A DNA stretch of 30,255 nucleotides from a virus. This document shows positions 1,751-18,984 of this stretch, piece by piece; position 1 is the stretch's first letter, and each line of letters opens with the position of its first letter. A program made the translations under genes and the position numbers. Location: positions 1 to 30,255 of IMG/VR virus record IMGVR_UViG_3300037117_000039; one strand, written 5' to 3'. Under the pieces are notes generated by a model. That model ran no database searches. It saw only the letters and a program-made list of their open reading frames with translations, and was not told the DNA's origin.

Positions 1751-2248
1751 TCAAGATTCGGAGGAAGCTTCTTCGGCGGGATCGTCCGCCACCGTTTCCG
1801 TGATCGGTGGAAAAATTGGTTCCTCTCCGCGTGACGCTTGCTCCCATGTATAATTCGGCGGTTGGAAATGCGGCAAATCTTTTGAATGAGTCCAATCGTC
1901 TCCCCAGTCAAGCCCGACCGAAGGAGCGAGGCTCCCAAGATTGCGATAATACGTTTCGTTCTCGGAATACTTCCCGTCCTCCTCGAAAAAAACATCGAAG
2001 GCCATACCCGGAGAATAATTGTGCAAACTCTGGCCAACATTCGCATGAGTGATAACCGGGCCGGGAGCGGAGCGTCCCTTCGCATAATCTTGCGCCTGGT
2101 CTCGCGCAGAGCGTACCGTTTGCGATAGCAACGGCTGCGGATCGTTCGGAAATTTTTCCTCGTATAAAGCGAACAGCATGTTCATACGCCGCTCTAATTC
2201 AGGGAATAGGTATTTCGGGTCACGGGAAGAGATCGCAGATGCTTGCAT
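1751..2248 (-). CDS. Endolysin, peptidase M15 family (peptidoglycan L,D/D,D-peptidase)
   Basis: A 165-residue protein with the M15/VanY-type zinc peptidase signature: SLHNYSPGMAFDVFF (about residues 74-88) supplies His76 and Asp85 as metal ligands, and DLPHFQ supplies Asp124 as catalytic base and His127 as third ligand. Phage M15 enzymes such as the T5 endolysin cleave peptide bonds in peptidoglycan stem peptides to release progeny. There is no signal peptide, so it should act after holin opening. It is the last gene of the late region, followed by a terminator. The C-terminal 30 residues are acidic and outside the fold. ATG at 2248 has no Shine-Dalgarno; the leader AAGCACCAATG recurs at the capsid gene. 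Confidence 0.9.
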   Translation of the reverse strand: MQASAISSRDPKYLFPELERRMNMLFALYEEKFPNDPQPLLSQTVRSARDQAQDYAKGRSAPGPVITHANVGQSLHNYSPGMAFDVFFEEDGKYSENETYYRNLGSLAPSVGLDWGDDWTHSKDLPHFQPPNYTWEQASRGEEPIFPPITETVADDPAEEASSES

Positions 2249-2952: not shown

Positions 2953-2961
2953 GGTACAAAG

Positions 2962-3333
2962 CTACTGAACTCCTTCGTCAGCGAGTCCGGCCTGAATCGA
3001 ATTTACGATGTTAGCGAAATGCTCATCCGTTATCTTCGGAGCCGCAACATCCTTCACTAATTTTGCGAAGCTCGCGGCAGCGATTTCTATATTCGCAGTT
3101 GACTTGTCCGCGATATAGTTCTCAACCGCAACATCGAGCGTTTCTACATCCGTAATCTCTGCTGAGATCGCGGGGTCTTCACTCTCGATGAAATCACCGA
3201 GTGCTTTTACCGCGACTTCGCGGTTCTCCGGCGTGTCTGCATTCTTGCAAGCAACGGCGGCAGTGATAACCGGAACTAATCCGGCAAGTTTGCCGCGAAG
3301 AAAAATCGAAAGAATCCAACTGGGTATGTTCAT
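2962..3333 (-). CDS. Unknown protein of the lysis region
   Basis: 123 residues. The first 30 are amphipathic to hydrophobic (IPSWILSIFL, then GLVPVITAAVAC), followed by an acidic helical domain with repeated Asp/Glu. The N-terminus could associate with the membrane; it is not a standard cleavable signal peptide. The start is ATG at 3333, with the A/C-rich leader TTTACAAACACC and no Shine-Dalgarno. First gene after the glycine-rich tail protein and a 118-base spacer. No family recognised. Confidence 0.7.
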   Translation of the reverse strand: MNIPSWILSIFLRGKLAGLVPVITAAVACKNADTPENREVAVKALGDFIESEDPAISAEITDVETLDVAVENYIADKSTANIEIAAASFAKLVKDVAAPKITDEHFANIVNSIQAGLADEGVQ

Positions 3334-3372
3334 GGTGTTTGTAAATTAAATGGAATGTGAATTAAAAACTTT

Positions 3373-3450
3373 TTATGATGAATGAGTTCCGCTAATGTCG
3401 AATAACGGCTTCCGGCGACGTCGATCCCGAAAAATTAGGGCGTTGCTCAT
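3373..3450 (-). CDS. Possible 25-residue basic peptide
   Basis: ATG one base after the stop of the glycine-rich exported protein, then 25 codons with an Arg-rich core (FRDRRRRKPLF). It lies in the 118-base spacer 3334-3451, which otherwise holds nothing I can identify. The tight coupling is suggestive, but the frame is too short to call with confidence. Confidence 0.25.
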   Translation of the reverse strand: MSNALIFRDRRRRKPLFDISGTHSS

Positions 3451-3451
3451 C

Positions 3452-4396
3452 TTAGTTCTGGATATTTATGACATTGCCCGCGCTTCCGTCCGAACCATTC
3501 GCGCCCGTGCCGATTCCGGTTCCGTGTGAGCCGCCCGTTGCGGTTGCGGCATTTCCGGTGAAGGAATCGTAAATCAGGCACACGCCTCCACCTCCACCAC
3601 CCCCACCTCCACCGCCGTTATCGCCACCTGAATCCACGGCATTCGAGCCATTCCCGCCGTTAGCCGAGATTGTACCGCGATTAACGAGGGTTGAGGATGC
3701 AATGAGAAGAACGCCCGCGCCGCCACCGCCAGCACCAGACGTTGGGGAGCCTATGGAGAGCGTGAGTCCGCCGCCGCCGCCGCCCGAAGCACCTCTTGCA
3801 CCGGAAATTGTCGCTGCCCCCGTTAATATAATTGGAGAGAGCCACACACTTGGCGTGTGGAGCGTCCCGAATACAAATGAAGTCACCCCCGCGCCTCCGC
3901 CCGTATTAATACCTCCACCAGTCCCGCCATTGCCGCCAGCCGCCGCAAGGCATTCGAATGAAACAGACGTACTACCATTTCCAACCCCCGTTGTTGTGCG
4001 GCCCGCGCCGCCCGCAGTTGACCCTAAATAGACACCGGACGATGATGGAATCGCGGCACCCGGAGTTGTAGTTACGGCATTATTTCCATTCGCCTGTATC
4101 GCTCCCGAATCCGTGAGCGTCCCCGTACAAAAGATTCGATAATTCGCCGTCTTAATCGTCACGCCCGAACTCACCGTAATTCCAGAGCACGTAATATCCC
4201 GCGTGAGCGTGTAAACACTCGAAGATGGGGCCATGCCAAGAATCGTTGTCGTACCATCGAACCTAACCGAGCCATCAGAGCCGTCGCCATAGATTGCTTC
4301 TCCGTGCGAGGAGCCGAGTGCCGTCCCGGAGAGTAGTTTCGTTTGCGCTGAAACTATTCCCGGAACGAAAAGCAATAGGAAGAATAAGCGTCTCAT
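3452..4396 (-). CDS. Exported glycine-rich tail-fibre/adhesin-like protein
   Basis: 314 residues from ATG at 4396, which overlaps the previous stop (TAATG) and so fixes the N-terminus. Residues 1-17 are a Sec signal peptide (MRRLFFLLLFVPGIVSA) with Gln at +1. Next comes a beta-rich segment (about residues 55-105; ITVSSGVTIKTANYRIFCTG) like the leading part of phage fibre domains, then a long region of Gly clusters (GGNGGTGGG, GASGGGGGG, an 11-Gly run) interrupted by hydrophobic strands. Similar Gly-rich runs form polyglycine-II receptor-binding tips in T-even adhesins such as S16 gp38; that analogy is inference. An export signal on such a protein is unusual. Last of the tail block. Confidence 0.8.
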   Translation of the reverse strand: MRRLFFLLLFVPGIVSAQTKLLSGTALGSSHGEAIYGDGSDGSVRFDGTTTILGMAPSSSVYTLTRDITCSGITVSSGVTIKTANYRIFCTGTLTDSGAIQANGNNAVTTTPGAAIPSSSGVYLGSTAGGAGRTTTGVGNGSTSVSFECLAAAGGNGGTGGGINTGGGAGVTSFVFGTLHTPSVWLSPIILTGAATISGARGASGGGGGGLTLSIGSPTSGAGGGGAGVLLIASSTLVNRGTISANGGNGSNAVDSGGDNGGGGGGGGGGGVCLIYDSFTGNAATATGGSHGTGIGTGANGSDGSAGNVINIQN

Positions 4397-5331
4397 TAGT
4401 TTAGAGTCCACGAGCCGGACGATGTAACCATTTCCCACTCTAAGTTGGCGACAATGCAAATTATCATGCACGTCCCGTATTGATCCGTGCTCGAGATGTA
4501 ACCGCCTGTTCCCGTCGCGCCGGTAGTAGTGCCCGCGTGGAAAATAGAACCTGTTATTCCGACGAATTTAGCTCCCGCAGCATTCGAGCCGCCGATAACT
4601 TCGATTTCCGAACCCACTGCCGCCACTGCCGGAAGTGTGAGCGCGAGTTGGGAACCGCTTTTATTATTTACATAAATCACATTCACGGCGGCGGTTTGAT
4701 CGGCAGTGATCGCCGTTACCGTGGTGCTTGTCGGAGCCGCGCTTGTCCAATTCGTTCCATCCGAAGTGAGCACGTTGCCGCTCGAACCAGGCACGGCATA
4801 GGTTTCGGTCGAAGCAACCCAATTCGTTCCATTCGATACGATAATTTTTCGAGTCGTTGGAGTTGCCGCAGTTGGAAATGTCGGTGTAGTCCACGCCGGA
4901 ACGCCGGACGCGAGAGTGAGGAGCGTTCCATCCGAACCTTTCCCTAACCGGCTCCATACCGTTGTGGATGAAGCATAGAGAATATCACCCGCCGCCTGCG
5001 ATGCAATAATAAATCCAGCAGGAGTGCCCGTGGTAGTTTGGAGCGTCCCGGAAGTCGGAAGCGTTATGCTCGTGGTGTTCGTGAGTGTGAGGGTGCAAGT
5101 GTACGCGCCGGAAGTAGTAAGATTCCCGCCCAGCGTGATCGTGTTCGCGCCGTTGTTTACACCGGTTCCGCCATAGGTTCCCGAAATGAGAGAACCATTC
5201 CATGTTCCGGTATACGGGGTGAGGAATGTGTTGCCTTGCGCGGCGGTCTTGCCCGCCCACAAAGGAGTTTGTGCCCGCGCGGAGAGAACTCCGCCGAACA
5301 AAAGCAAAAGTAAAATCCCTAATTTTTTCAT
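4396..5331 (-). CDS. Exported tail-fibre-like protein
   Basis: 311 residues from ATG at 5331, two bases after the stop of the preceding gene. Signal peptide MKKLGILLLLLFGGVLSARA with Gln at +1. The mature part has modules typical of phage fibres: GTYGGTGVNNG, a GDILYASSTTVWSRLGKG unit followed by LASGVPAW, and two NGTNW/DGTNW repeats (SGNVLTSDGTNWTSA). The C-terminal 90 residues (LALTLPAVAAVGSEIEVIGG, then a GYIS turn) form a beta domain also seen in the next upstream gene. Very rich in Thr, Ser and Gly. It probably encodes a receptor-binding or surface-displayed fibre; why it is exported is unresolved. Confidence 0.8.
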   Translation of the reverse strand: MKKLGILLLLLFGGVLSARAQTPLWAGKTAAQGNTFLTPYTGTWNGSLISGTYGGTGVNNGANTITLGGNLTTSGAYTCTLTLTNTTSITLPTSGTLQTTTGTPAGFIIASQAAGDILYASSTTVWSRLGKGSDGTLLTLASGVPAWTTPTFPTAATPTTRKIIVSNGTNWVASTETYAVPGSSGNVLTSDGTNWTSAAPTSTTVTAITADQTAAVNVIYVNNKSGSQLALTLPAVAAVGSEIEVIGGSNAAGAKFVGITGSIFHAGTTTGATGTGGYISSTDQYGTCMIICIVANLEWEMVTSSGSWTLN

Positions 5332-5332
5332 G

Positions 5333-5770
5333 TTAGTTAAAAGTACATCCGTTAAGCATAGCATCATAAATGCCCGCGCCCATCGGATAGAGTGTGATCG
5401 AATCGTTGACATTTACACTTTGGATATAACCAGCCGTCCCGGTTGTTGTCGCGTTCACGTCACCGCTTATTGTAATTTGTTCCCCGTCTCTCTGGATGAT
5501 TTTCCAGCCGCCGAGATTATATCCCAAAATCGTTATCGGTGCGTCGCCGAAATTTGCAGTCACCGGAAGCGAGAACAGCACCCGGTCGTCGGGGTCGTTG
5601 GCGCGATAAACGGTGTTCTTTGCCATCGTAACATCATCCGTCGCATCCACGAAAAGTCCCACTCCGCTTATTCCCGGCGAACCTACCGGATTCACCGAAA
5701 TGGTTACCTCGCTCGGCTGAACAATTATGCTCGCAACATTCGGCTGAACGATAATAGTTACATCATCCAT
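5333..5770 (-). CDS. Tail-fibre-associated protein
   Basis: 145 residues without a signal peptide. The N-terminal 35 residues are repeated Val/Ile-rich strands (TIIVQPNVASIIVQPSEVTI). The rest (about 65-145) parallels the C-terminal domain of the downstream exported protein: a LPV/LPA strand, a Gly-Trp strand, then a GTAGYI turn and a final polar strand. This looks like a small trimeric fibre or cap domain. Its start overlaps the end of the upstream gene by eight bases. A/C-rich leader ACATAAAACAAACGC, no Shine-Dalgarno. Confidence 0.65.
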   Translation of the reverse strand: MDDVTIIVQPNVASIIVQPSEVTISVNPVGSPGISGVGLFVDATDDVTMAKNTVYRANDPDDRVLFSLPVTANFGDAPITILGYNLGGWKIIQRDGEQITISGDVNATTTGTAGYIQSVNVNDSITLYPMGAGIYDAMLNGCTFN

Positions 5771-6101
5771 GCGTTTGTTTTATGTTAAACGTTCCAGCCG
5801 CCCAACGCCTGTCCGCTCCGTTCGTGTCCGTGCTCCATAGCTCATACGCGCCGATCCATGATGCAGCAAGCTGCGCTTTCGTGAATGCGATGTTCAGCAC
5901 TCCCAATGTCGGACTTCCAACGAAAGTTGGAGTGATTTGAAATTCCGTTTGCCCAAAAACAGAAAGCCACCATCTCGGATACGCCGTTAGGTCGACCGCC
6001 GAACCGTCGCTGTTCTGAAATGTAAGGTTCCCCGAATCATCCGTGTTTTGATCCACGCTTATGTTCAGCGCACCCGGCTCGTTGAGATAGATGTTTGTCA
6101 T
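5763..6101 (-). CDS. Small tail/baseplate-type beta protein
   Basis: 112 residues, with a pattern of beta strands resembling the N-terminal immunoglobulin-like part of baseplate upper proteins and small fibre-connector proteins: an ISVDQNTDDSGNLTFQNSDGS entry, then VDLTAYPRWWLSVFG, then alternating strands ending GTFNIKQ. No signal peptide. The ATG overlaps the stop of the exported 501-residue protein by one base. It may be an adaptor or chaperone for the fibre proteins around it. Family assignment is weak. Confidence 0.6.
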   Translation of the reverse strand: MTNIYLNEPGALNISVDQNTDDSGNLTFQNSDGSAVDLTAYPRWWLSVFGQTEFQITPTFVGSPTLGVLNIAFTKAQLAASWIGAYELWSTDTNGADRRWAAGTFNIKQTHG

Positions 6102-7606
6102 TATTGCGTTTCAATCACATGATAAATCCATTTGTAAGTTGTGGCCGTCGCTCCGGGCGGAATGCTCGCCACGCCGATAGTAAATGAGCCGGTCGCCGTC
6201 GCGAATAGATACCCATGAATCAGCGCGGTCGTAGCATCGGCGGCAGTTAGCTCTACCATCGGGGTGGTCGTATAGGCGGCGTTGTATGTCACCGCTACGA
6301 TATTTCCAGCAGCCGGATTTACTCCACCCGGAAACAATGCTCCGTCCGTTGTGGAAACAGCAATCGTTCCGGCAACGTCCGTCGCGTGAGTGAGCGTAGC
6401 AACTGCCGCCGTTCCGCCCGCTCCGGCGATTCCGCAACCCGTGGGCTGAGTCGCGGCACTTGGAACTATCGTCTGTTGGGATTGCAGGTGTGAGTTCTTA
6501 ATCGTAAGTCCCGCATTCGTTACCGGCGATGCTCCGTTAAGAAGCACCGATGGAAAACCCTGAATGCCACTCCATGTATTCGCGTGGCTCAATGCGATTC
6601 CCAGCGTCCCCGTCGTTGTGATCGTCCCGCCCGTGAGCGTTGCGTCAGTAGCAACCGAAGTGACCGTACCAGTTCCGCTCGGAAGATCGCTTAGGGCAAT
6701 CGCTCGGAAGGCCGGAGCCGCCGAACCGCCGCCAATTATCCCGGCATAGAATTGATGATCGGTAACCGATACCGGCGAGAATGACAGCGCGGGAGTTGTC
6801 GTGGCTGTCGTAACGCCGGTCGTAAAGAGGGCGGCCAGTCCCGTGGCGGAAAAAGACGTGACGGTTCCGCCGCCATAATAAATGGCGTTTGAAGTTGCAA
6901 TAAGTTTCCAGCGATTCGCAAAAGAATTGTCGTACCAGAACATCGCCGTCTCTCCCGGATGCAGGGTTAAGTTGGAACCAATGTCAAAACGATTTGCTGC
7001 CGCACTGCCCGCGTTCTGATTATCGAACGTGACAGTATAAGCTCCGTTGTCAACGAAGGTAATTCTTTGAGCGTAGCCGCTTTGATAGAATCCGGTAAAC
7101 GTGACATTGGCGCTTGGTGCGGTCGTTCCGATGAATAGCCCCTCTGGTGGTATATTCGCATCGTTAAAAGTACCGCCCGCATCCCACATGGTCTCGTTCG
7201 TTGAGTAACCAAAATCGGCAGAAGATAGCCATGTGGGGTCGCCACTACTTTGCCCTAAAGTCTGCCACGTCGTTCCAATTCCCAACCGCGCAGGAACAAG
7301 AAATGAGTTCTCATAAATAATATCCCCTTCTGTTGTCATCGGATTCGTCATGCCCGAAGAGGTTGCGGAGGCCCACGTCGTCACTCCCGATCCGTTCGTT
7401 TGCAGAAAATAATTCGAGGTTCCCGCCGTCGTTGGTAACGTTAATGTCCACGGCGCGGAAAGCGTGGGAGCTTTTATTAGGAGCGTATCGGACAGGCCCG
7501 CTTTCGGATAGAGGACAAGCGCATTCCCGCGCAACAATTGAGCGCGAGACGTGTGTACCATGCTGCACAAAAGAACGGCGATTAATAAGTTCCGCAGCAT
7601 ACCCAT
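6101..7606 (-). CDS. Exported tail-fibre-like protein, large
   Basis: 501 residues. ATG at 7606 or 7600 lies within the last 25 bases of the upstream gene, so the signal peptide (MLRNLLIAVLLCSMVHTSRA, Gln at +1) is at the true N-terminus. Modules in order: a TLTLPTTAGTSNYFLQTNG unit; GDIIYENSFLVPARLGIG followed by GDPTW (shared design with the 311-residue exported protein); a beta domain with GSAAANRFDIGSNLTLHPGE that matches the C-terminus of the upstream tail protein; LTGGTITTTGTLGIALS fibre repeats; and a C-terminal domain ending in a YKWIYHVIETQ strand. Probably a receptor-binding fibre or a fibre-like surface protein. Confidence 0.8.
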   Translation of the reverse strand: MGMLRNLLIAVLLCSMVHTSRAQLLRGNALVLYPKAGLSDTLLIKAPTLSAPWTLTLPTTAGTSNYFLQTNGSGVTTWASATSSGMTNPMTTEGDIIYENSFLVPARLGIGTTWQTLGQSSGDPTWLSSADFGYSTNETMWDAGGTFNDANIPPEGLFIGTTAPSANVTFTGFYQSGYAQRITFVDNGAYTVTFDNQNAGSAAANRFDIGSNLTLHPGETAMFWYDNSFANRWKLIATSNAIYYGGGTVTSFSATGLAALFTTGVTTATTTPALSFSPVSVTDHQFYAGIIGGGSAAPAFRAIALSDLPSGTGTVTSVATDATLTGGTITTTGTLGIALSHANTWSGIQGFPSVLLNGASPVTNAGLTIKNSHLQSQQTIVPSAATQPTGCGIAGAGGTAAVATLTHATDVAGTIAVSTTDGALFPGGVNPAAGNIVAVTYNAAYTTTPMVELTAADATTALIHGYLFATATGSFTIGVASIPPGATATTYKWIYHVIETQ

Positions 7607-9939
7607 AAACTATCGTAAATAAATTCTGCTGTTTGTCCTACAAGAAGCGGAAAGTCCCCGCCCGCGATCGAGAACCGATTTGCCGCAGTGCTACCCGAAT
7701 CGAAATTTTTCAAGGTCACTACGTTGGTTCCCGTGTTCCGAATTTTCAGGAAAACGCAATTCGGTGTGGGTATAATTCCGGTGAGGTTATATGCCGACGT
7801 TGCCGATAATTGCAAATAGACATTCGGAGTGACCAAGCTCGCCGAAAGATTATCTGTATTGCCGGTGAGTGCATTCGCAGTAACCGACCACACGGACACC
7901 GACGATCCGGGGCTGCTCGCGGCATTCGAGCCGATGGAACCGTTCCCGGAACCTTCATTGCCGACTATCACCCATGAAAGCGGGAGCGCGATGGATTCTA
8001 CCTCCTCGAATATCACCTGGATTTCATCCATCACGATATCCCGTTCAATGGAAACGATCCGATAGGTTATTTCATCGAGCGCGGGAGTGAACAGATACGT
8101 TTGACCGAGCGCAATATCCGACCAATTCGGCGCGACAACCCCCCGAAATCCCGCCGTTAATTGCTTCCGGTTCCCGCGAATCGCTCCGCCGAACAGCATA
8201 GCGTACCCAAGCATAGGATTCTGTTGCCGAATCGCCTTTTCGTCATCCGTGAGCGTGGAACTTTCGTAGGCCGCATGAACCACGTAGTATTGCCGCCAAC
8301 CTTCGAACTGATAACACACTTCGCAGTCAGGATCGTAACCGAATGTCGTCCACGGATCGGCTGAACCGCGATTCAAAAAATCCGGGAGATGCAGATTTTG
8401 CACCGGGTACGTTTGCCCCGGAAAATCGAATAGCAACGATCCGACAACCCAGCCGTCCGGGTTTAATTCGTTCGTAGTAGTTCCCGCCAGCGCGGTTCGT
8501 TGACCGCACTTCCATTGCGATTCCAACGGAAGATTCGTATTGAGCGATAGCCGCGAAATGTCGAATGCCGGAGCCGAATTATATCCTATCGCATGAACGC
8601 CGAATGGAACTTCTATTGCAACGGGACTCAATGCGTTCGCGGGAACTACAATAGCTCCATCGAACCCGCGTTGCGTTACCGATACTCCGTCCGAATCCGT
8701 GATCGGAACGTCCTCGGATGAATCCGGTAATGGATCGAGCGCGGGCATAAGTGCGCCCGCTATCGTGATCGGCATAAATTTCAGAAGTGGAAGGCCGTCC
8801 GCATCGAACGAATCGCCCATGCTGACCCAGCACCCTAATTGGATCGCCACTCCGCGTATAACATCGAGCGCGAGTTGATCGGGACTCCACGTCGCCGGTG
8901 CTTTGAACGCCGTGCCATCGAGCCAGTTGTAACCGAATGCCTGATTGAATGAGAGTACTGGATCGGTAGTCACTCCCACTTCATCGTAGTAACCCATGTT
9001 GCCGCTTCCACCGCCCCATTTCACTATCGGGAATGTCATGGAACTGTTAAGTAGCCCGTCCCATGCCACCTGTGCAATCCCGCACATCTTTTGAACGACG
9101 ACGGACATTCGCACTCCCCAATTTCCCGCAGGGAACGTTCCCGCATTGCCAACGTGATCGAGTATCGACGCCGTGATAGCGCCCTTCGGATCGCAACCGT
9201 ATGCGGCAAGGTGAGTGCGGCCCGTGGCGGCAGGATTATCGAAGTCTGGAACTCCTCCGGTCACGCCTGCAAGCATATCCGTTAGAATGACGGGTGACAT
9301 CAGTGGGATCGCAGCACCGGGCGAACCAACGCCGTGCGAAACGAATCCTATTAGTTCCGGTTCGCATGTGATGGATGCAATAAATTCTTTTTGCCCGTCC
9401 ATATCCGATTCCGCCCATGTAATTCCACCGATAGGAACGCTTAATCGGAGCGCGGGAGAGAACGTGCATTTGACCGTATCGAATCGCCGTCCCGTTTTAT
9501 TTATCAGACGGTGAGCAACAGAATACGTTCCCGCATCCACGCTTCCGGCAAATACAAATTCCGTTGGCGGCAGTGTTACATCCTCGTAACGAGCGAGAAT
9601 AGCATGAATCAGTTGCCCGCTCGCTCTCGCATTCTCGAATTGCTCCCGGAAAATCGGCCCGAATTGTTCCACCATCGCATCGTCAAACCATTGCAGATTA
9701 GGAGCATCGTTAAATTCTATGTCCACTCCTTCCGAAAGCGAAGCAAGCTCCGCCGTTGGCCTCGATGATTTTATTTTGCCGAGGGTAACTATTGCATAGT
9801 CCCACTGCATATAGTAATACGAACCGCCCAGCGTATCGAGTTCGCCACTCCATTTTCCGGAACCATTAAAATTCAGACGCAACTGATACACTCCGCTTGG
9901 AGTGTTCAGTCCACCGATCCGAATTTGTGAGATTATCAT
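7582..9939 (-). CDS. Tail tip/baseplate protein
   Basis: 785 residues, directly downstream of the tape measure, the usual place for distal tail or tail-associated hub proteins. The N-terminal 200 residues are beta-rich (GLNTPSGVYQLRLNFNGSGK). The central part is long and aromatic-rich without a recognised enzyme motif, and about residues 600-660 look like a hub strand set (VVAPNWSDIALGQTYLF). The C-terminal 85 residues repeat a fibre module (STAANRFSIAGGDFPLLVGQ, then FIYDS) that also occurs in the exported protein downstream. No peptidase or lysozyme signature seen. Leader AGTTACACAATG, shared with the connector gene at 16306. Confidence 0.65.
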   Translation of the reverse strand: MIISQIRIGGLNTPSGVYQLRLNFNGSGKWSGELDTLGGSYYYMQWDYAIVTLGKIKSSRPTAELASLSEGVDIEFNDAPNLQWFDDAMVEQFGPIFREQFENARASGQLIHAILARYEDVTLPPTEFVFAGSVDAGTYSVAHRLINKTGRRFDTVKCTFSPALRLSVPIGGITWAESDMDGQKEFIASITCEPELIGFVSHGVGSPGAAIPLMSPVILTDMLAGVTGGVPDFDNPAATGRTHLAAYGCDPKGAITASILDHVGNAGTFPAGNWGVRMSVVVQKMCGIAQVAWDGLLNSSMTFPIVKWGGGSGNMGYYDEVGVTTDPVLSFNQAFGYNWLDGTAFKAPATWSPDQLALDVIRGVAIQLGCWVSMGDSFDADGLPLLKFMPITIAGALMPALDPLPDSSEDVPITDSDGVSVTQRGFDGAIVVPANALSPVAIEVPFGVHAIGYNSAPAFDISRLSLNTNLPLESQWKCGQRTALAGTTTNELNPDGWVVGSLLFDFPGQTYPVQNLHLPDFLNRGSADPWTTFGYDPDCEVCYQFEGWRQYYVVHAAYESSTLTDDEKAIRQQNPMLGYAMLFGGAIRGNRKQLTAGFRGVVAPNWSDIALGQTYLFTPALDEITYRIVSIERDIVMDEIQVIFEEVESIALPLSWVIVGNEGSGNGSIGSNAASSPGSSVSVWSVTANALTGNTDNLSASLVTPNVYLQLSATSAYNLTGIIPTPNCVFLKIRNTGTNVVTLKNFDSGSTAANRFSIAGGDFPLLVGQTAEFIYDSLWVCCGTY

Positions 9940-9950
9940 TGTGTAACTTG

Positions 9951-12900
9951 CTACACGCGAACCCGCGCTTGCATCTGCACGGCTTTTTCGTGATCAAGCA
10001 GCATCCGGTTCGAACTCATCACCATTGGCTTTGTCAGTCGCGCAATTTGAGCATCGTCGAACTTCATGGTCTGGCTCTGCTGCATGGAAGGTTCCGCGCC
10101 GGAATTTATCGCGTGTAATTGCGGTGCCCATTTCGAAGCAGCGCGGCTGTTAACTACAAATTCTTTGCGCGATAACATACGCGGGTTTTTATCGTCGCGT
10201 TCTCCGCCCGCGCCGCCAACGAATCCACCGTCCGCCATGCCAAACATTTTGGGAACTTCGACAGCGAGCGCAACGACACCGGCAACAGACGCGGCTGCGG
10301 CTAAGGCATCGAGCGGAAACGGTAGTGTTTCAAACGCATTATACACGGCTTTTGCTGCCGTTGCGATCCACGTTCCGGCTGCGCTGGCTGCGCTGGCAAT
10401 TCCTTCGGCAACATAAGTCGCTTCACGCTCAAGAAATCCGGCGTTCACGAGTGCCGTTTGTTTCGATTGCCCCATAAGTTGAACGGCCAGTTTTGTCGCT
10501 TCATTTATGGCGATATTTTGAAGCTCCTGGAGTAGGTACTGTTTTAACTTCGCGCCGCGCTCTTGCCACGTGCCGGTGGCCATCGTAAGTCCCTGCTGCA
10601 AATAGTTCTTCGCGGCATCCTCCTTCGCTTTCTCATCCTCGTTATACGCATCGGTTTCTTCCTTGCGATATTTTTTGCGGATCGCGGCTTTTTGCTGTTC
10701 CGTGAGATCGGCGTTTTCGAGTTCCCGCTTCCGGTCAAAATCAATAAGCGCCAATTTCTTATCGAGGCCATCTTTCATCGCATCGAGCGCGTCCTTATTA
10801 AGTCCGTTCTGGACAGACATTGCATCATTCGCAGCCTGCGCGGTGTTCTTGGCGGCATTGATGTTGTACGTCGCTTGCAGTTTGGCTTTTTGCTCATCGC
10901 CGTCCGCCATGAGCGAGATCTCCGTTGCGAGTCCGGCCTGTTCGATTTCAAATCTCTGCTTTGCAATTTGTTTATCGGTAAGACCCTCTTTTGCTCCGCG
11001 TAATTCGAGCGCGGAAATCGCATTCTCGGTTTTCGCCTGAGCGGCTTCGATAGTCGCGGCGCGATCGTCTATGGCCTGTTGCGTTTTGTCCTGTTTCAAT
11101 TTCGCGGCTGCGGAGCGATACGCGGTCGACGCTTCGCCATATTGCTTTTTAGCAATATCCGCCATTTCTTGCGCGTGAACTATTTCGGCGGCCATCTCGT
11201 CGGCCTTTGCCCTCTTGCCAGTCTCACCCAAGAGAATGATATTGTTTTTGGCGAGTTCTAATTCATTATCAGACTCCTCTCTTAAAATGGTGAACTTATC
11301 TTTCGCCGCTTTGGCTGCGGCCTTCGTCGCGCCCGCGTCTTTCTCTTTTGTTTTACCATAGATCGCATCCTCGGCGGCTTGCTTATCGGCATCCTGCTTA
11401 TCGGTGATCGCGCGTTGTCTCTGGCCGTACTCTGACCACTGCTGCAATCGCGTTTCGAGCACAGCCTTTTCCGCGCCGGTTGCCGTCTGTAACTTATTGC
11501 GAATATCGGCAACGGCAGAGATCGCATCGTCCTGGCCCTGCTTGGCATCCTTCGAAGCTTCCTCTGCATTTTTCTGGAGTGAATCGGTATAGTCCGCCGT
11601 GGCTTTTGTCGCTGCCGCCGTTGCCTTCGCAATATCTTCGAGGGATTTTTTATCGTCCTTGATCGCCTCAGTATGTTTTTTCGTTGCCGCTTCCGCTTTG
11701 CCGGTCACGCCCAAAAGTTCCAACAGCGCACCGCCCGCGTTCATCACGGTTTCGGCTGCTTTCTTAAACCAGTCTACTACTTCCTTCCAGTGATTGACCA
11801 AGAGAACTATTCCGCCGATAAGCGCGAGAACAGCGACTGCGATCCACACGAATGGATTGACCGCCATCGCTGCATTCAGTGCCCACGTCGTAATCGTTTG
11901 CACGTTCATGGCAACGGTGAGAATGCCGATCGCAATAGTAAGCTCCGGGAGAATGGGCTTGAGAACATTTAACCCTTCGAATACCGGAGTGAGCGCGAAC
12001 GACACTAATTTCAGCGCGGGAGAAAGTATGCTGCTCGCAATATCGCCGACCGTACCGATCAACGGAGTCACGTCTTTCAATACCGGCGCGAGTCCGGTTA
12101 GGAGAGTGTTCGCAAGTTCGCCCGCCGACTCCTCTACATCCTTTTGCGCGAGCGCGGCCTGCTGCGCGGGTTCCTGAGCCGTCTTCATCGCGCTGGCAAC
12201 AAGCGGCATACCCTCTTCCATCAGCTTTTGCATCCCGGCCTGCGACTGCAAAGACTTCGCGGAAATCTGAATGCCCGCTTGGTTCGCGGCGATATACGCC
12301 TGTGTGTATTTTTGGAGGTCAGCACCCTGCGCTCCCGTGGCGGCATGAATTTGCGCCATAAGTACCCCGGTCTCATCCTTCGTTTGACCGAATGCCGCGC
12401 CAATTTGTTCCGCTTGCTCTTTCGCCTTATCCACCCCGTCGCCGAACGAGACTTCCATTGCCTTGTTCGCGGCGGTAACTTCACCGGACTTCTCAACCAA
12501 CGTAGAGAGTCCCGCTGCCGCCGCGCCGAGCATAGCGACCTGCGGCATACTGATTCCGCCGCCGCTTTCCTTCGGTGCTATCTTCCGTTTCTCGGCCTCC
12601 TGTTGAATCGCAGCAGTTTCTTGCTTGGCTTCATTCAGCGCAGACGTTAACCTTTTTTTCTCTTCGGCATCGAACGACGCGGTGATTTTCTTTTGAAGCT
12701 CCTCTTGCTTGGCGGCAGAGGCTTCGAGCATCGAAAGAATTTCCTTATTGCCCGTCCCTTCGGCTTGAATTCGTTCCTGAATTTCCGCAAAAGTTCGACC
12801 GACTTTCTCCTGTTCTAACAGCCGGAACTGTTGTAATTCTTTTTCGTCTACATTAATGCGAGTTTGGTATTCGTTCTTGGCGGCGGCAACAGCCTCCTTA

Positions 12901-13355
12901 TCGCCCTCCTGGGTGAGCGTTCGAACCGTGTTGGCAAGCTGAACGCGCTCCTGCCGCACGGCTTCGTTCATCGAATGAATCTTGGCCCGTATATCGTCAA
13001 CGGACTTCGATTCGTATTGCGCCTTTAGTTCCGCCGCTCTTTTCACGGACGCGGCATCGTCGGCGGCATACGCCTCCATCGCGCGAGTGAGGGCCGAAGC
13101 TTGGGACTGCCGTTTCGCGTTCGCCGCTTCTTCTGTTGCCGCTATTTTCGCCGCCGTCTTTGCGGCTTCGGCGGCTAATTGATCGCCGGTTTTTGTGGCC
13201 GTCTCAACGGCATTCTGCGCGGACTTTGTAATACCGCCGTCGATCCCCATGCCAACCTTCGAGAACGCCTTCTCCCAATATGCCGCAGCGCGATCAATGA
13301 CTTGCAATAAGCCACTCTCATCTACTGCGAATCCTACATCGAGATTTACGGCCAT
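9951..13355 (-). CDS. Tail tape measure protein
   Basis: 1134 residues, the longest gene in the window, placed after the tail chaperones and before the tail tip as in siphoviruses. A long charged, Ala-rich coiled coil fills the first 280 residues. Hydrophobic segments at about 468-521 (ending VWIAVAVLALIGGIVLLVNHW) could be inserted in the host membrane during DNA entry. More coiled coil follows, with a second hydrophobic patch at about 1015-1035. Length sets tail length; at roughly 1.5 angstrom per residue this predicts a tail near 150-170 nm. ATG at 13355 overlaps the stop of the frameshifted chaperone fusion (TAATG). Confidence 0.93.
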   Translation of the reverse strand: MAVNLDVGFAVDESGLLQVIDRAAAYWEKAFSKVGMGIDGGITKSAQNAVETATKTGDQLAAEAAKTAAKIAATEEAANAKRQSQASALTRAMEAYAADDAASVKRAAELKAQYESKSVDDIRAKIHSMNEAVRQERVQLANTVRTLTQEGDKEAVAAAKNEYQTRINVDEKELQQFRLLEQEKVGRTFAEIQERIQAEGTGNKEILSMLEASAAKQEELQKKITASFDAEEKKRLTSALNEAKQETAAIQQEAEKRKIAPKESGGGISMPQVAMLGAAAAGLSTLVEKSGEVTAANKAMEVSFGDGVDKAKEQAEQIGAAFGQTKDETGVLMAQIHAATGAQGADLQKYTQAYIAANQAGIQISAKSLQSQAGMQKLMEEGMPLVASAMKTAQEPAQQAALAQKDVEESAGELANTLLTGLAPVLKDVTPLIGTVGDIASSILSPALKLVSFALTPVFEGLNVLKPILPELTIAIGILTVAMNVQTITTWALNAAMAVNPFVWIAVAVLALIGGIVLLVNHWKEVVDWFKKAAETVMNAGGALLELLGVTGKAEAATKKHTEAIKDDKKSLEDIAKATAAATKATADYTDSLQKNAEEASKDAKQGQDDAISAVADIRNKLQTATGAEKAVLETRLQQWSEYGQRQRAITDKQDADKQAAEDAIYGKTKEKDAGATKAAAKAAKDKFTILREESDNELELAKNNIILLGETGKRAKADEMAAEIVHAQEMADIAKKQYGEASTAYRSAAAKLKQDKTQQAIDDRAATIEAAQAKTENAISALELRGAKEGLTDKQIAKQRFEIEQAGLATEISLMADGDEQKAKLQATYNINAAKNTAQAANDAMSVQNGLNKDALDAMKDGLDKKLALIDFDRKRELENADLTEQQKAAIRKKYRKEETDAYNEDEKAKEDAAKNYLQQGLTMATGTWQERGAKLKQYLLQELQNIAINEATKLAVQLMGQSKQTALVNAGFLEREATYVAEGIASAASAAGTWIATAAKAVYNAFETLPFPLDALAAAASVAGVVALAVEVPKMFGMADGGFVGGAGGERDDKNPRMLSRKEFVVNSRAASKWAPQLHAINSGAEPSMQQSQTMKFDDAQIARLTKPMVMSSNRMLLDHEKAVQMQARVRV

Positions 13356-13878
13356 TATTCCGAATGTTCAGCACGCGAAAATTCTTCCAGAGTCAGCACT
13401 ACTATCGCCGCCTCTGGAATACTCATGTCTAACAGCGATTGGTAACCTTTTAAGTCGCCTCGGCAGCACCAGAGAAATCTGGCTCGGTCGCGGTGTTCGT
13501 CGGGGATTCGGATGTCAAGGGTTTTGCCAGAAGACTGGAGCCCAAATCCTTCTGAGCACTCAAAAGCTTGGTACCACGCTCCATATAATCCGTCGACAAA
13601 AAACCCAGCGTCTCCATGACTCCAAACGCTCCTTCCGAATCCGTCTCTTCATCGAAGAGGGACGCAACCAATTTGCCGGTGAGGAGCGCGGTCTTCGAAG
13701 CGTCATCGAGTGGAATCAATAGCTTCTCGATCGCTATTCGCTTCGATCCGCTTAGGTACGCGCCCGATTGTGATTGAGCGTAAATTCCTTCCGACAGCTC
13801 GAAATAAACGCGAGGCGTGAAGGGCTTAGCGCTATATCGCCAGCCCTTCCATTCAATAATTTTCTTTTCTTCCATCAT
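13355..13878 (-). CDS. Tail assembly chaperone fusion made by -1 frameshift (gpGT type)
   Basis: Translating 93 codons of the chaperone, then slipping back one base at 13598-13606, opens an 81-codon extension (reading FVDGLYGAWYQAFECSEGF onward, then RARFLWCCRGDLKGYQSLL) that ends at TAA 13357-13355, overlapping the tape-measure ATG. Total 174 residues. The -1 frame is closed by TGA about 40 bases before the slippery site and is open across it, so the shift point is well bounded. Lambda G/GT and many siphophages make the same pair: the long form binds the tape measure, the short form is needed in excess. Coupling of the extension stop to the next start supports it. Confidence 0.85.
13450..13878 (-). 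CDS. Tail assembly chaperone, short form (gpG type)
   Basis: 142 residues in the zero frame, starting at MMEEKK; the second Met is an equally possible start. It lies between the major tail protein and the tape measure, where siphophage chaperones are encoded. The sequence is a soluble alpha/beta protein (KGWRYSAKPFTPRVYFELS near the N-terminus, helical middle), with a Ser/Thr/Ala-rich end that looks like zero-frame read-through past the frameshift site. The similarity is positional and architectural rather than by motif. Confidence 0.8.
   Translation of the reverse strand: MMEEKKIIEWKGWRYSAKPFTPRVYFELSEGIYAQSQSGAYLSGSKRIAIEKLLIPLDDASKTALLTGKLVASLFDEETDSEGAFGVMETLGFLSTDYMERGTKLLSAQKDLGSSLLAKPLTSESPTNTATEPDFSGAAEAT
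13598..13606 (-). promoter_or_regulatory. -1 ribosomal frameshift slippery site
   Basis: On the minus strand the zero-frame codons are ctG GGT TTT TTG. The heptamer G GGT TTT fits X XXY YYZ exactly, and the codon GGT at 13605 is in phase with the ATG at 13878. Slippage moves translation into the only other frame open to the tape-measure start. I did not find an obvious strong stimulatory stem-loop or pseudoknot by eye downstream. Confidence 0.85.
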
Positions 13879-13889
13879 GTAATACGGTG

Positions 13890-14783
13890 TTATACAGCCG
13901 CTTCGTTGTCAATGAGTGTGAGTGTCGCGGTCGCGGGAACAGTGAAGTCAACGCGAGTGGCACCCTTTGCGATGAATGCTTTGATCGCAATTTTGACCGT
14001 GTGCTTATCCGCGTATTCCACGGTGGGAATTTTTCCGCCGCGTAACGTTACGAGGTTCACCTGGTCGCCGTTCCAAAAATAACAGGCGATAGTCGCGTTG
14101 CCGTTTGCGGCACCGAGAGCGGCATCCACATCCACTTTCGTGGTTTGCGCCATCGTAATATCGCCGGTCACATCCAGACCACTTAGAATCGGTCGGCCGC
14201 CCTGAACCATGGTTGAGCGGCCTTTGATAGAAAGATTGAAGTCCGCAATGGTTCCAACCGGAGCACCGCCAATAAGAACCTTTTGGATTCCGGGCCGTCT
14301 GCGCTTCGTCGGGTCTTCGCCCGCCGACCACGTGAGAACGGTCGTGGTCTTCTCGAGACCTTGGAACGTCGCCACACCCATCTCGCCGGTGAGCGTGTAG
14401 TTAAGCTGGGCTTCGTTGTTCTTCAGGGTGTACTCGAATTCAACTCCGAGTACCGTTTCGTCATCGAGCGTTTGCCCGGTGAATTCGTGATAGGTTGGCA
14501 GCGCGGATTTTGTCACGCACTGAACGACATCCTGAGCGAGCACGTAAACGGCCGCCAAATCTTCGATGCGATTCTGCAGTGCCTGCGCTTCGATCTTGAT
14601 ACGAACGGCATCCAGCAAATCGTTGTCGGAACTCATTCCGACAACAATAGGCTCAACGGTCATTTTCGTCGGCTTTTTAAGACCGAGTTCAACGCCGCCC
14701 GTGAACGTCGCTGCCGGAGCCGCGAGCGCGATAGCCGTAATAATCGGACTGGCTACATTAGCCGGGGTTAGAGTGAATGCCAT
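13890..14783 (-). CDS. Major tail (tube) protein
   Basis: 297 residues, immediately upstream of the chaperone pair and tape measure and downstream of the tail terminator, the standard siphovirus order. Beta-rich with regular polar/hydrophobic alternation: GVEFEYTLKNNEAQLNYTL, a LSIKGRSTMVQGGRPILSG region and a C-terminal ATRVDFTVPATATLTLIDN. No signal peptide; the N-terminal LTPANVASPIITAIALAAPA is mildly hydrophobic. Larger than the lambda tube protein core, so an extra domain may decorate the tail. ATG overlaps the previous stop (TAATG). The call rests mainly on position. Confidence 0.75.
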   Translation of the reverse strand: MAFTLTPANVASPIITAIALAAPAATFTGGVELGLKKPTKMTVEPIVVGMSSDNDLLDAVRIKIEAQALQNRIEDLAAVYVLAQDVVQCVTKSALPTYHEFTGQTLDDETVLGVEFEYTLKNNEAQLNYTLTGEMGVATFQGLEKTTTVLTWSAGEDPTKRRRPGIQKVLIGGAPVGTIADFNLSIKGRSTMVQGGRPILSGLDVTGDITMAQTTKVDVDAALGAANGNATIACYFWNGDQVNLVTLRGGKIPTVEYADKHTVKIAIKAFIAKGATRVDFTVPATATLTLIDNEAAV

Positions 14784-14935
14784 TACTTAGTCTCCGTGTT
14801 TGGTTGTGGAATTTCGGGTTTCGGCTGAGGCTTCGCGGGAGCCGGAGCAACGCGCCAGCCGCAGCGATTGCATTCGTTGTACTTCCCGCCGATCTCGCCG
14901 GGACAGTTTTTTACATTCGGATTGTTGCACTTCAT
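14783..14935 (-). CDS. Small zinc-ribbon-like protein in the tail operon
   Basis: 50 residues. Four cysteines spaced C3-x7-C11 and C22-xx-C25 (KCNNPNVKNC; NECNRCGW) suggest one zinc-binding site. The second half is a Pro/Lys/Glu tail (PAPAKPQPKPEIPQP). ATG at 14935 overlaps the stop of the tail-terminator gene (ATGA) and its stop overlaps the next ATG (TAATG), so it is tightly coupled on both sides and very likely translated. Function unknown; an assembly cofactor is possible. Confidence 0.75.
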   Translation of the reverse strand: MKCNNPNVKNCPGEIGGKYNECNRCGWRVAPAPAKPQPKPEIPQPNTETK

Positions 14936-15375
14936 GTTCTTGGCCCTCGCGTTAAATAATTAATTTCTAAGTCCAGCCGTGCGACAACGAAGCCGCGCGA
15001 ATCTTCTTGCGCTCCATCGAATCGCCGCAATGCCGTGTTCCTATCGAGCGTAGCAACCGTTTGATCCCACCAGAACCATTCGGCACTTGCGCGATCCTGC
15101 GGATTATCCAGAATGGTATTTATCACATCATGCGTGTAATCATACCACTCTCCGTTCGGCATGTCGCCACCGACGAAATAACAAACATAAAACTCCAGAG
15201 GCATCTTGCCTTCCACCGGAGCCTGCCCGTTGTATATTTGCAGGTCTTCGTTCCCAGCAAATATCGAAACGAACGATTTACCGCGCCCAAATTGCGGCTG
15301 CTGATAACCATACTCCGGCTGATAACCGATAAGCTTGTCGATAAAATACTGCAATATCGTTCGCTCTGGACTCAT
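14932..15375 (-). CDS. Tail terminator/completion protein candidate
   Basis: 147 residues in the connector-to-tail slot. The C-terminal RFDGAQEDSRGFVVARLDLEINYL reads as a final beta-hairpin typical of tail terminator (gpU-like) proteins. The N-terminus (RTILQYFIDKLIG) begins with a helix as in that family. It overlaps its neighbours on both sides by four bases (ATGA). Assignment by position and secondary structure; no catalytic function expected. Confidence 0.6.
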   Translation of the reverse strand: MSPERTILQYFIDKLIGYQPEYGYQQPQFGRGKSFVSIFAGNEDLQIYNGQAPVEGKMPLEFYVCYFVGGDMPNGEWYDYTHDVINTILDNPQDRASAEWFWWDQTVATLDRNTALRRFDGAQEDSRGFVVARLDLEINYLTRGPRT

Positions 15376-15782
15376 GCCGCAAACGCCCTTTCTCCGGCAG
15401 TCTTTAATCGGTCAAGCAGCGCGCCCTTAATATCCGAATCTGTTTCCGGGTAAAACTTCCGGTACTTTTGGTTCCCTTCCGCTTTCTTGCGGTTCGCGGC
15501 ATCTGGGCTAACGTGCCCAGCCCCTGCTATAATACCAACCGTTGCATCGTCCAGCATCTTTCCGGTCACTCGTAAATCCGGTGTCGTAGAAAGCCCGTGC
15601 TTCGCTCGAAACTTTTCATATTGCGGCGTGTACTTTTTTAGCGGTGCTCCAAAAATATCCTTTGAGGCTTTGGAGTTGTCGACCATCGCCTGCTTTAATT
15701 CCGCAGCCATCGCCATAGCGACCGCCGCAGCCCGAAGCTGTATCTTTCGCCGAACCGCCGTTGTGTCGATCGTCGATTTCAA
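15372..15782 (-). CDS. Virion morphogenesis/tail completion protein (HK97 gp10-like)
   Basis: 136 residues. An N-terminal amphipathic helix is followed by PLKKYTPQYEKFRAKHG and then TPDLRVTGKMLDD, the 'G...Y...K....G...L.LTG.M' layout of HK97 gp10-like and Mu virion-morphogenesis proteins that sit at the head-tail joint. It ends with a basic helix (ALLDRLKTAGERAF). Coupled by ATGA overlaps to the genes on both sides. Confidence 0.65.
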   Translation of the reverse strand: MKSTIDTTAVRRKIQLRAAAVAMAMAAELKQAMVDNSKASKDIFGAPLKKYTPQYEKFRAKHGLSTTPDLRVTGKMLDDATVGIIAGAGHVSPDAANRKKAEGNQKYRKFYPETDSDIKGALLDRLKTAGERAFAA

Positions 15783-16306
15783 AACGTTACCCTCACGGAA
15801 CTAAGTTTGTTGCTCCACTGCCGTTCCACGAACGTGAGTTGGCCATCCTGGTTCAGGTCGAACGCGAGAAGTGCCCATCGGCTTTCGAACGATTGAGTTT
15901 TCTTTTTCTCCCAGCGATCGAGTGCCTTGTCTATTGCAGTTCCCGCGTCCTCGTATTTGAACCGCATCCGAACTTCGCCCTCTTCGAGCATCGCGGCAAC
16001 GGAATAGATGACCCACGTTTCGTTCAGTACCGTCCAATTCGTGAGTGTCGCAAGTACATCGTCCGGTGAATTGAGCGAGGATGCGAGTACGCCGCCCGGA
16101 TAACTTCCCAGCGGCTGCATCCACTTCGCAATTTTTACGAGTAAATCAGAAATTAACTGAGTCCTCGCCTGAATGCCCTTTCGATCTACCAACACTCCGT
16201 TCGTCGTATCGTCCTGAGACGCTGACATAAGACCGACATCGGCCATTCTATCGAGTATGTCCGCGCTGGTTCCGAATTGAGATGTTGCCGGATCGAAATA
16301 ATCCAT
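15779..16306 (-). CDS. Head-tail connector protein with an EF-hand-like loop
   Basis: 175 residues, first gene of the connector group. Helical N-terminal half (SADILDRMADVGLMSASQ) resembles head completion/adaptor proteins. Near the C-terminus, residues 150-161 (DLNQDGQLTFVE) match the 12-residue EF-hand calcium loop at positions 1, 3, 5, 6, 8 and 12. A single such loop could bind calcium and stabilise the joint; this is inference from the motif. Leader AGTTACACAATG, no Shine-Dalgarno. Confidence 0.6.
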   Translation of the reverse strand: MDYFDPATSQFGTSADILDRMADVGLMSASQDDTTNGVLVDRKGIQARTQLISDLLVKIAKWMQPLGSYPGGVLASSLNSPDDVLATLTNWTVLNETWVIYSVAAMLEEGEVRMRFKYEDAGTAIDKALDRWEKKKTQSFESRWALLAFDLNQDGQLTFVERQWSNKLSSVRVTF

Positions 16307-16313
16307 TGTGTAA

Positions 16314-16790
16314 CTAGTTCGGCTTTCGAAGCCCGATTTTTTCTGTGTAGCTCGTGGCCGATACGGAATCGCCCGCGCCCGAGCTGAACACGTTGCGGAG
16401 TCGTATCTGAGCGCAATTTTGGAGCTTGTCTATTGCCATGCCCTGGTCGCGCAAGAATACACTTAGCACCTGCCCGGTATGAGCAGTACCCGCAAGCGTG
16501 GTGTCGGTAGGACGGCCCAGTGTAAGTCCGCGAACCGGAGCCACATCGAGCAGCCAGTACCCGTTAACTAATCCGTCCGTATGAATTTGCACCTTCGCGG
16601 AATCGGTTCCCGTCGTTGTGAATGCGAGACTCACAACCGGATAACCGCCCACGCTAATGGTGTTGCTCGTATCGGCCTGAGTAGACGCTTTGTAAAACGT
16701 CTGACTGGAGAAAGCGGTGTAATAACTAAGCTGCGCGTTTGCGTTTACCGCCATCAGCGACAACGCGAGGAGAATCAGTAATTTCTTCAT
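16314..16790 (-). CDS. Exported beta protein encoded in the head module
   Basis: 158 residues from ATG at 16790. The first 19 residues are a classic Sec signal peptide (KK, then LLILLALSLMAV) cut at NANA before Gln. The mature 139 residues look like a beta-sandwich (ISVGGYPVVSLAFTTTG; SAKVQIHTDG; IRLRNVFSSG) with no enzyme motif. It follows the capsid and an acidic small protein, where a decoration or head-fibre protein would be expected, yet the export signal would carry it out of the cytoplasm. It could be a surface-displayed phage protein, or a decoration protein added outside the cytoplasm. An upstream in-frame start at 16865 would bury the signal and is unlikely. Confidence 0.75.
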   Translation of the reverse strand: MKKLLILLALSLMAVNANAQLSYYTAFSSQTFYKASTQADTSNTISVGGYPVVSLAFTTTGTDSAKVQIHTDGLVNGYWLLDVAPVRGLTLGRPTDTTLAGTAHTGQVLSVFLRDQGMAIDKLQNCAQIRLRNVFSSGAGDSVSATSYTEKIGLRKPN

Positions 16791-17130: not shown

Positions 17131-18027
17131 TTAGAGTAAAGAGTTGCCGTTGCCGTCAGTGCCCGGTGCGAACGTACCGAGTGCCATGTTATCTTCCTTC
17201 GGAGCCTTCGCCGCGAACAGCAGAATGCCCTTTACATACGAAGCAAAATTAGCTTCGCGCTCGCCGGTCGTCGCTTCGCTGATGGCGCGAGCAACAGTAA
17301 GCGAAGAGTCCGGCGAACCTGCCATGACTTTGTAATTCGCTCCCACCATCGCAACTTGCGTCGAAACGTAAACGCCTTTGAATCCACCGGCAACAATTTC
17401 CATCTTGCCCGCGAGTACGCCGTACTGCGAGGTTTGATCGCCGCGCTGAGATAACTTTGCGCCGATCTCGATGAGAAGCGCATCCGCGAACCACGGTGGA
17501 ACTACCACGTTCAGGTTCGAGGTATCGCCATTAGCGATCGTGATAAGCCGCGACAAACGCGAGAGTGCGCGTGATGGCAGCACTTCACCGGCAACCTGAT
17601 TGAGTCCGACCGTGACCGGAGCCGCATCGAGGCCGTACAGGCTGGTGATGATCTGCGTGTGCAACCCGGCGAGATACGTGTCCACATCCAGCATAAGTTG
17701 GAGTGCAGCGTTCCTCGCGTAAATAGTTAACACGTCGATGATGGAACCTTGCTGTGCGTCTCGCGTGATTTGATCCGCGTAGTAACGCATCTGGTCGATG
17801 GTCAGCTGGCTGTTCGTCGTGCTCGGCGTTGAGAACGAAATGTCCGCGCCGGTATAAGCGGACGTAGTGGACTTGCCGGGGAGAACGATGTTGACCGTCT
17901 TATTCGCTTTCAACTCTCCTTCGTAGTGAGAGTTGCCTAACGCCTGCTCGAATATCGGCGTGGCATAATAGGTCTGCTTTTCAAGAATCAGCTTCCATGC
18001 CTGCGATTGCTGTGCAGTGAGTGCCAT
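17131..18027 (-). CDS. Major capsid protein
   Basis: 298 residues, after portal and scaffold genes. Features in line with an HK97-fold coat of the P22-like or N4-like group: DISFSTPSTTNSQLTIDQMRYYADQITRD (coat-protein strand then spine helix), LQLMLDVDTYLAGL (helix), LNVVVPPWFADALLIEIGA (P-domain strand and helix) and a C-terminal KGILLFAAKAP strand. There is no N-terminal delta domain or protease site; a separate scaffold gene is upstream instead. Preceded by a 200-base structured leader; starts with AAAGCACCAATG, without Shine-Dalgarno. Confidence 0.85.
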   Translation of the reverse strand: MALTAQQSQAWKLILEKQTYYATPIFEQALGNSHYEGELKANKTVNIVLPGKSTTSAYTGADISFSTPSTTNSQLTIDQMRYYADQITRDAQQGSIIDVLTIYARNAALQLMLDVDTYLAGLHTQIITSLYGLDAAPVTVGLNQVAGEVLPSRALSRLSRLITIANGDTSNLNVVVPPWFADALLIEIGAKLSQRGDQTSQYGVLAGKMEIVAGGFKGVYVSTQVAMVGANYKVMAGSPDSSLTVARAISEATTGEREANFASYVKGILLFAAKAPKEDNMALGTFAPGTDGNGNSLL

Positions 18028-18441: not shown

Positions 18442-18984
18442 TTACACAGTCGGCTTCTTGCCCGCCGTCTCTTTCTTTTCAAGCTCCGCAAGAAACGCGG
18501 TCGGATTTGTGTCGGCAAGCTTCAAGAGTTCCTCTTCCGTTTTCGGTGCTCCGTTGGCTGCAATGGCTCCTGGTGTCGTGCTCGTAAACGCCCGAACGAA
18601 GGTACGAAGTTGTAACAGAGGCAGATCTTTCGCGGCCTTGCGTTCTTCGGCTGGCAATTGTTCGACCAACTTGGTGCGCTCCACATGGTCGAACGATTTC
18701 ATTTGCTCCGCGAGCGGCTTGAATTTATCGCGCTCCTCGATCGTCGCGCGAAGCTGTTCTTTCAACTCCGCGATCGCAGCGTCCTTTTCTTCCGCCGTTG
18801 CTTTCGTCGTATCGAGTTCAGCCTTTAGTTCTTTGGCTCGAACACGCGCCGCAGCCTCCTTCTCGGCTCGGGCCTTCGCTGCCGGGTCTTTTACAATAAC
18901 AGTAGGCACGGCTGTTTTCTTTTTGAATGCAGCAAGGATCGCTTCTTTGGCTGCGGATGTATCGCGGGGAATTTTGATTGCCAT
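18442..18984 (-). CDS. Scaffold protein
   Basis: 180 residues between portal and capsid. A long charged coiled coil occupies about residues 35-100 (AKARAEKEAAARVRAKELKA, then AELDTT and further heptads). A Pro/Ala linker and a basic end (KKETAGKKPTV) follow; the short basic C-terminus is the usual coat-binding element of scaffolds. No protease domain. ATG overlaps the portal stop (TAATG). Confidence 0.75.
   Translation of the reverse strand: MAIKIPRDTSAAKEAILAAFKKKTAVPTVIVKDPAAKARAEKEAAARVRAKELKAELDTTKATAEEKDAAIAELKEQLRATIEERDKFKPLAEQMKSFDHVERTKLVEQLPAEERKAAKDLPLLQLRTFVRAFTSTTPGAIAANGAPKTEEELLKLADTNPTAFLAELEKKETAGKKPTV

Follow-up and report, generated by a model that had tools for sequence, protein, structure and literature searches.

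Predicted Sec signal peptides on fibre-type proteins of a tailed phage and of phages unrelated to it

Four genes of a tailed phage, termed here sp1 to sp4, were found to encode proteins that begin with a Sec/signal peptidase I (SPI) signal peptide (SP) followed by Gln at +1, at the very positions where a first-pass annotation of this DNA had placed them; all four lie on the minus strand, which that annotation had left unspecified. Judged from their sequences, sp1-sp3 are very probably exported proteins of fibre type. Tailed-phage particles are understood as assembled wholly in the cytoplasm. SPs on fibre-type proteins are odd in that light, since tail construction is regarded as taking place within the cell, with no export step. 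The SPs are kept in a relative from an independent metagenome, and SP-fronted fibre genes appear to recur across unrelated phages, so that the oddity is wider than the first-pass annotation saw.

The window, that is, the whole stretch of 30,255 bases that was analysed, is an IMG/VR virus record and comes from a tailed phage, one that encodes a tape measure protein. Its features are as follows, where ^ marks the SPI site.

20786..22015, minus: terminase large subunit (phrog_2, Terminase_6C)
18984..20399, minus: portal protein (phrog_4142, SPP1_portal; weak match)
17131..18027, minus: major capsid protein (phrog_267, E 1.6e-15)
16314..16790, minus: sp4, 158 aa orphan; SP MKKLLILLALSLMAVNANA^QLS; between capsid and head-tail genes
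9951..13355, minus: tape measure protein (phrog_28, E 3.5e-7)
7582..9939, minus: g7582, tail protein of 785 aa that has no SP; C-terminal domain also present in sp3
6101..7606, minus: sp3, 501 aa; SP M(G)MLRNLLIAVLLCSMVHTSRA^QLL, ending HTSRA^QLL; fibre modules
5763..6101, minus: g5763, 112 aa; phrog_1084 domain, without SP
5333..5770, minus: g5333, 145 aa, without SP; its C-terminal domain is similar to the C-terminal end of the sp2 homologue in contig L123 (see below)
4396..5331, minus: sp2, 311 aa; SP MKKLGILLLLLFGGVLSARA^QTP; fibre repeat module and C-terminal adhesin-type domain
3452..4396, minus: sp1, 314 aa; SP MRRLFFLLLFVPGIVSA^QTKLLSGT, then a beta-helix/polyglycine adhesin-like body
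2335-2520 and 2526-2783: two small hydrophobic holin-like genes, beside the endolysin
1751..2248, minus: endolysin (peptidase M15; PF13539, E 2.5e-8)

Read along the minus strand, the genes run from terminase, portal and capsid through sp4, the head-tail and tail genes and the tape measure to g7582, sp3, g5763, g5333, sp2, sp1, a small gene, the two holin-like genes and the M15 endolysin, with the lysis cassette directly downstream of the SP fibre genes. The GC and GC3 of the SP genes match the rest of the phage, and they are therefore not recent acquisitions. Contamination or chimerism of the window was ruled out by the overlapping genes, the uniform GC3 and the same gene order in an independent contig. 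A DUF5131 gene (phage Gp37/Gp68-type; 22437-23273, minus strand) was also seen in the non-structural region.

The four SPs all consist of a charged n-region and an h-region rich in leucine, with Gln directly after the SPI site. They were scored with a home-made Sec/SPI scorer, not SignalP, at a cut-off of 4.6. Of the 35 window genes that encode 80 aa or more, six reached it, namely sp1-sp4, a holin-like protein and a hydrophobic small protein. When internal pseudo-starts in the genes of eight phage loci were scored, 10 of 2416 reached the cut-off; six of these ten lie in the window, all with Gln at +1, and are the start codons of SP genes inside longer ORFs. The starts of sp1, sp2 and sp3 had been described as pinned by their neighbours and are so: sp1 is fixed by an ATGA overlap with sp2, sp2 begins 1 nt past the upstream stop, and sp3 shares 25 nt with the end of g7582. 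The start of sp4 is not pinned, having a 108-nt gap and an in-frame TTG upstream. That the SPs are genuine, conserved and placed at true N-termini, and that the proteins are predicted to enter the Sec pathway of the host, is well supported.

Conservation in homologues had been set beforehand as a refuting test of the SPs, and they are kept in L123 (also L100; JAGWKM010000031.1, 1-13508), a 13.5-kb contig from an independent metagenome. Its gene order is the C-terminal domain of g7582, an SP-bearing sp3 homologue, another SP gene, an sp2 homologue and an SP gene in the slot of sp1. The sp2 homologue is 56% identical over its full length and keeps the SP, while the sp3 homologue (28% identity) has its SP and stands in the same place, as does the homologous C-terminus of g7582. 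The gene in the sp1 slot retains the SP and the QTKLLSGT motif, here before a body unrelated to that of sp1. Between the window and L123, the first 27 codons of this slot have a pS of 0.90 (saturated) and a dN of 0.22, and the SP of sp2 has a pS of 0.77 and a dN of 0.25, the mature part having a dN of 0.34. The SPs of the two thus evolve under purifying selection, with dN of about 0.22-0.25 and saturated synonymous sites. The contig has been placed in a Patescibacteria MAG (REEB161), probably through misbinning and not as a sign of the host. Searches of IMG/VR with the terminase, capsid, sp4 and sp1 found no relative.

The description of sp1-sp3 as fibre-like also stands, since they contain modules homologous to phage fibres and lie at the fibre locus. 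Residues 39-119 of sp1 match an SP-less phage ORF (L129), the sp2 module is found in 57 viral contigs, and an sp3 module is matched in an SP fibre of phage contig L008 (86% over 29 aa); in viral contigs the module homologues are mostly ordinary phage fibres. Foldseek matched the C-terminal domain of sp2 to a phage capsid spike and a tailspike, which we take as suggestive only because the model is of low confidence (pLDDT 56). No window protein directly matched the PHROG or Pfam fibre families; among the SP proteins, PHROG tail-fibre matches came only from those of contig L059 and prophage L132 (both below). In INPHARED, sp3 and sp1 matched only fragments, and neither sp2 nor the SP fibres of L059 and L077 matched anything. 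As for sp4, its assignment to the head module agrees with its position, but any structural role is putative; no homologue was found in PHROG, Pfam or IMG/VR, and an AlphaFold model was discarded (pLDDT 33).

By homology with the sp2 and sp3 modules, and then with the fibres so found, SP-fronted fibre genes were located on six unrelated phage contigs (L008, L054, L059, L070, L077 and L086), in a fibre or head-tail locus between baseplate/head and lysis genes. These contigs also carry baseplate, capsid, portal or endolysin genes; they have fibre modules in common with the window, and no backbone relationship was seen. L008 has three SP genes between portal and endolysin, L059 has three SP fibre genes, one of which matches the tail-fibre family phrog_863 (E 2e-10), and in L070 and L077 the SP fibres follow baseplate genes. 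Adjoining the SP fibres of L059 is a lipoprotein-like small gene (14292-14747), possibly an outer-membrane spanin. The SP form of these fibre modules is uncommon: 47 unique module homologues whose N-terminus is complete have no SP, which is the usual form. Neither about 36 Bacteroidota tape-measure loci, where only small genes with an SP and Gln at +1 (SP^Q) were seen, nor two Bacteroidota phage isolates yielded an SP fibre.

Cysteine content may be read as an independent sign of export in the SP fibres, whose mature parts have a median Cys content of 1.02 per 100 residues vs 0.15 in module-matched SP-less proteins (Mann-Whitney p=5e-7); SP-less genes of the same contigs have 0.5-1.3 Cys per 100. 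An even number of Cys was counted in 10 of 11 SP fibres from contigs unlike those of Bacteroidota phages vs 21 of 42 SP-less fibres, in a split by contig type that was chosen after seeing the data. Stabilisation by putative disulfides is supported in these relatives and not in the window, where the SP proteins contain 4, 3, 1 and 1 Cys and the paired-cysteine pattern is absent.

Sec/SPI substrates of Bacteroidota expose Gln at +1, known as the Q-rule (PMC5837995, PMC10653852), and the first-pass annotation had read the four SPs in this light. The reading fits a Bacteroidota host in two respects. SD-like sequences precede only 3 of 26 window genes, a scarcity expected for Bacteroidota, and a capsid search of Bacteroidota genomes led to a prophage (L132, G314; capsid 28% identity) whose tail operon ends with two SP^Q genes at the tail-fibre locus. 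The first of them (884 aa, with an ATGA overlap with the upstream gene) matches the tail-fibre family phrog_33450 (E 1.8e-19), and the second has short matches to tail-fibre/minor-tail families together with a phrog_1084 domain, which stands behind an SP here and without one in g5763 of the window. However, Gln at +1 is insufficient by itself to fix the host, because several of the unrelated contigs likewise use A^Q, which is found in SP fibres of high-GC contigs unlike Bacteroidota phages. The host of the window is probably a member of the Bacteroidota. Among Bacteroidota prophages, an endolysin (L127, 6325-6897) has an apparent Sec SP with Gln at +1 (MIKKMFLILLFLTGFVFS^QTKTTQ), and SP^Q proteins of about 180 aa are encoded shortly downstream of the tape measure (L196, complement 2899-3453; L194, complement 5041-5610).

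Display on the surface of the infected cell, which had been offered as a purpose of export, found no support. No T9SS C-terminal sorting domain was matched in Pfam by sp1-sp4 or ten related SP proteins, the four window SPs have no Cys in a lipobox (SPII) context, and sp1-sp4 matched no beta-barrel outer-membrane family in PHROG or Pfam. Surface display by T9SS or a lipid anchor was accordingly rejected, and because no surface anchor was found, the periplasm until lysis is the default location. That the SP fibre genes of the window stand directly ahead of the lysis cassette hints at late expression.

The explanation that we prefer as a whole, tentatively and with somewhat less than even confidence, is that these are exported accessory fibres. 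The tail-fibre-type adhesins sp1-sp3 and the head-region protein sp4 would be sent through the host Sec translocon, their SPs would be removed by signal peptidase I, and the Gln exposed by cleavage would, in a Bacteroidota host, be converted to pyroglutamate by glutaminyl cyclase. Late in infection the proteins would collect in the periplasm, as the lack of a surface anchor leads us to infer, and would be released at lysis. Such accessory receptor-binding fibres would fold outside the cytoplasm rather than being built into tails within it, and at lysis they might join virions through the short conserved mature N-terminus, or else surrounding cell surfaces; to this maturation and joining we give about a third of the weight. 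In favour of the preferred explanation we count the constant SP and QTKLLSGT before unrelated bodies, which is like the conserved N-terminus of ordinary fibres, and against it the presence of the same modules in host secreted proteins and the minority status of SP fibres. Within the exported reading, loading onto virions at lysis comes foremost and is still rather doubtful, a free decoy or receptor blocker is a more doubtful prospect, and a host-like adhesin is unlikely. That there is a recurrent class of tailed-phage fibres, exported, matured in the periplasm (disulfides/pyroglutamate) and mounted on or deployed around virions at lysis, is conceivable but rather doubtful.

The exported receptor-binding modules could instead act as free decoys or receptor blockers, occupying host receptors in the envelope or on post-lysis debris and so curbing superinfection, competing phages or the loss of progeny; Llp of phage T5 is a parallel in purpose, not in sequence. 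Free decoys rank nearly as likely as the accessory-fibre reading, although taken as a full account they would still be rather improbable. The common C-terminal adhesin-type domain of sp3 and the SP-less g7582 speaks for them, as does the resemblance of the SP-less g5333 to the C-terminus of the sp2 homologue, and L077 encodes an ordinary SP-less tail fibre (phrog_11303) adjoining its SP fibres, so that the exported fibres may not be virion parts. Yet a periplasmic protein with no visible surface anchor would meet outer receptors only after lysis, and a conserved N-terminus with variable bodies is more like docking.

Descent from Bacteroidota secreted fibre-like proteins, with the products still serving as surface or matrix adhesins of the infected or lysogenic host, is unlikely, even though a Chitinophagaceae chromosome (L124) encodes a non-phage secreted SP^Q protein with sp2 modules and some members of secreted-protein arrays (L138-L140) end in the C-terminal domain of g7582. 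A module pool shared by phages and hosts does exist, since the same modules recur in secreted proteins encoded on host chromosomes, but the phage-like GC and GC3, the embedding of overlapping genes in the tail operon of several phages, the predominance of ordinary phage fibres among the viral-contig homologues and the failure to find a T9SS domain all weigh against capture of host adhesins. We consider it very improbable that the hydrophobic N-terminus is a virion-anchoring or assembly peptide rather than a working export signal: it does sit where ordinary fibres attach to the virion, but the complete n-h-c architecture with SPI-type sites and Gln at +1 in all four proteins, the same architecture in distant phages and the more numerous Cys of the relatives, present in even numbers, argue otherwise.

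Conserved and selected export signals in unrelated phages would imply either assembly or maturation outside the cytoplasm or a secreted receptor-binding layer, and either alternative would alter what genomes are taken to say about host range, superinfection and phage competition. Maturation of virion fibres in the periplasm would give tailed phages a second assembly route, outside the cytoplasm. A search of the open-access literature brought up no account of exported tail fibres, which is not proof that none exists.

Precedent is known both for phage Q-rule SP genes and for an SP gene among tail genes. Phages of Porphyromonas gingivalis (Nixviridae) have five Q-rule SP genes, of unknown function and proposed as outer-membrane modifiers (PMC10367356); like those of the window, their Sec SPs expose an N-terminal Gln and are adapted to the Bacteroidota secretion pathway, but unlike sp1-sp3 they were not reported as tail-fibre-type (PMC10367356). 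Lom of phage lambda is encoded by an SP-bearing gene between the tail-spike and tail-fibre genes (PMC12309495) and in this resembles the window SP genes, whereas it is an outer-membrane beta-barrel and they encode fibre-module proteins with no match to a barrel family. Ordinary tail fibres (L002-L007, L011-L053 and others) have the same repeat/adhesin modules and stand on phage contigs, differing from the window SP proteins in having no SP and little Cys. The Bacteroidota secreted fibre-like proteins (L124, L138-L140), which in L138, L139 and L140 are encoded adjacent to one another in arrays on Bacteroidota chromosomes, combine SP^Q with the shared modules as the window proteins do, but they are chromosomal and lie outside phage operons.
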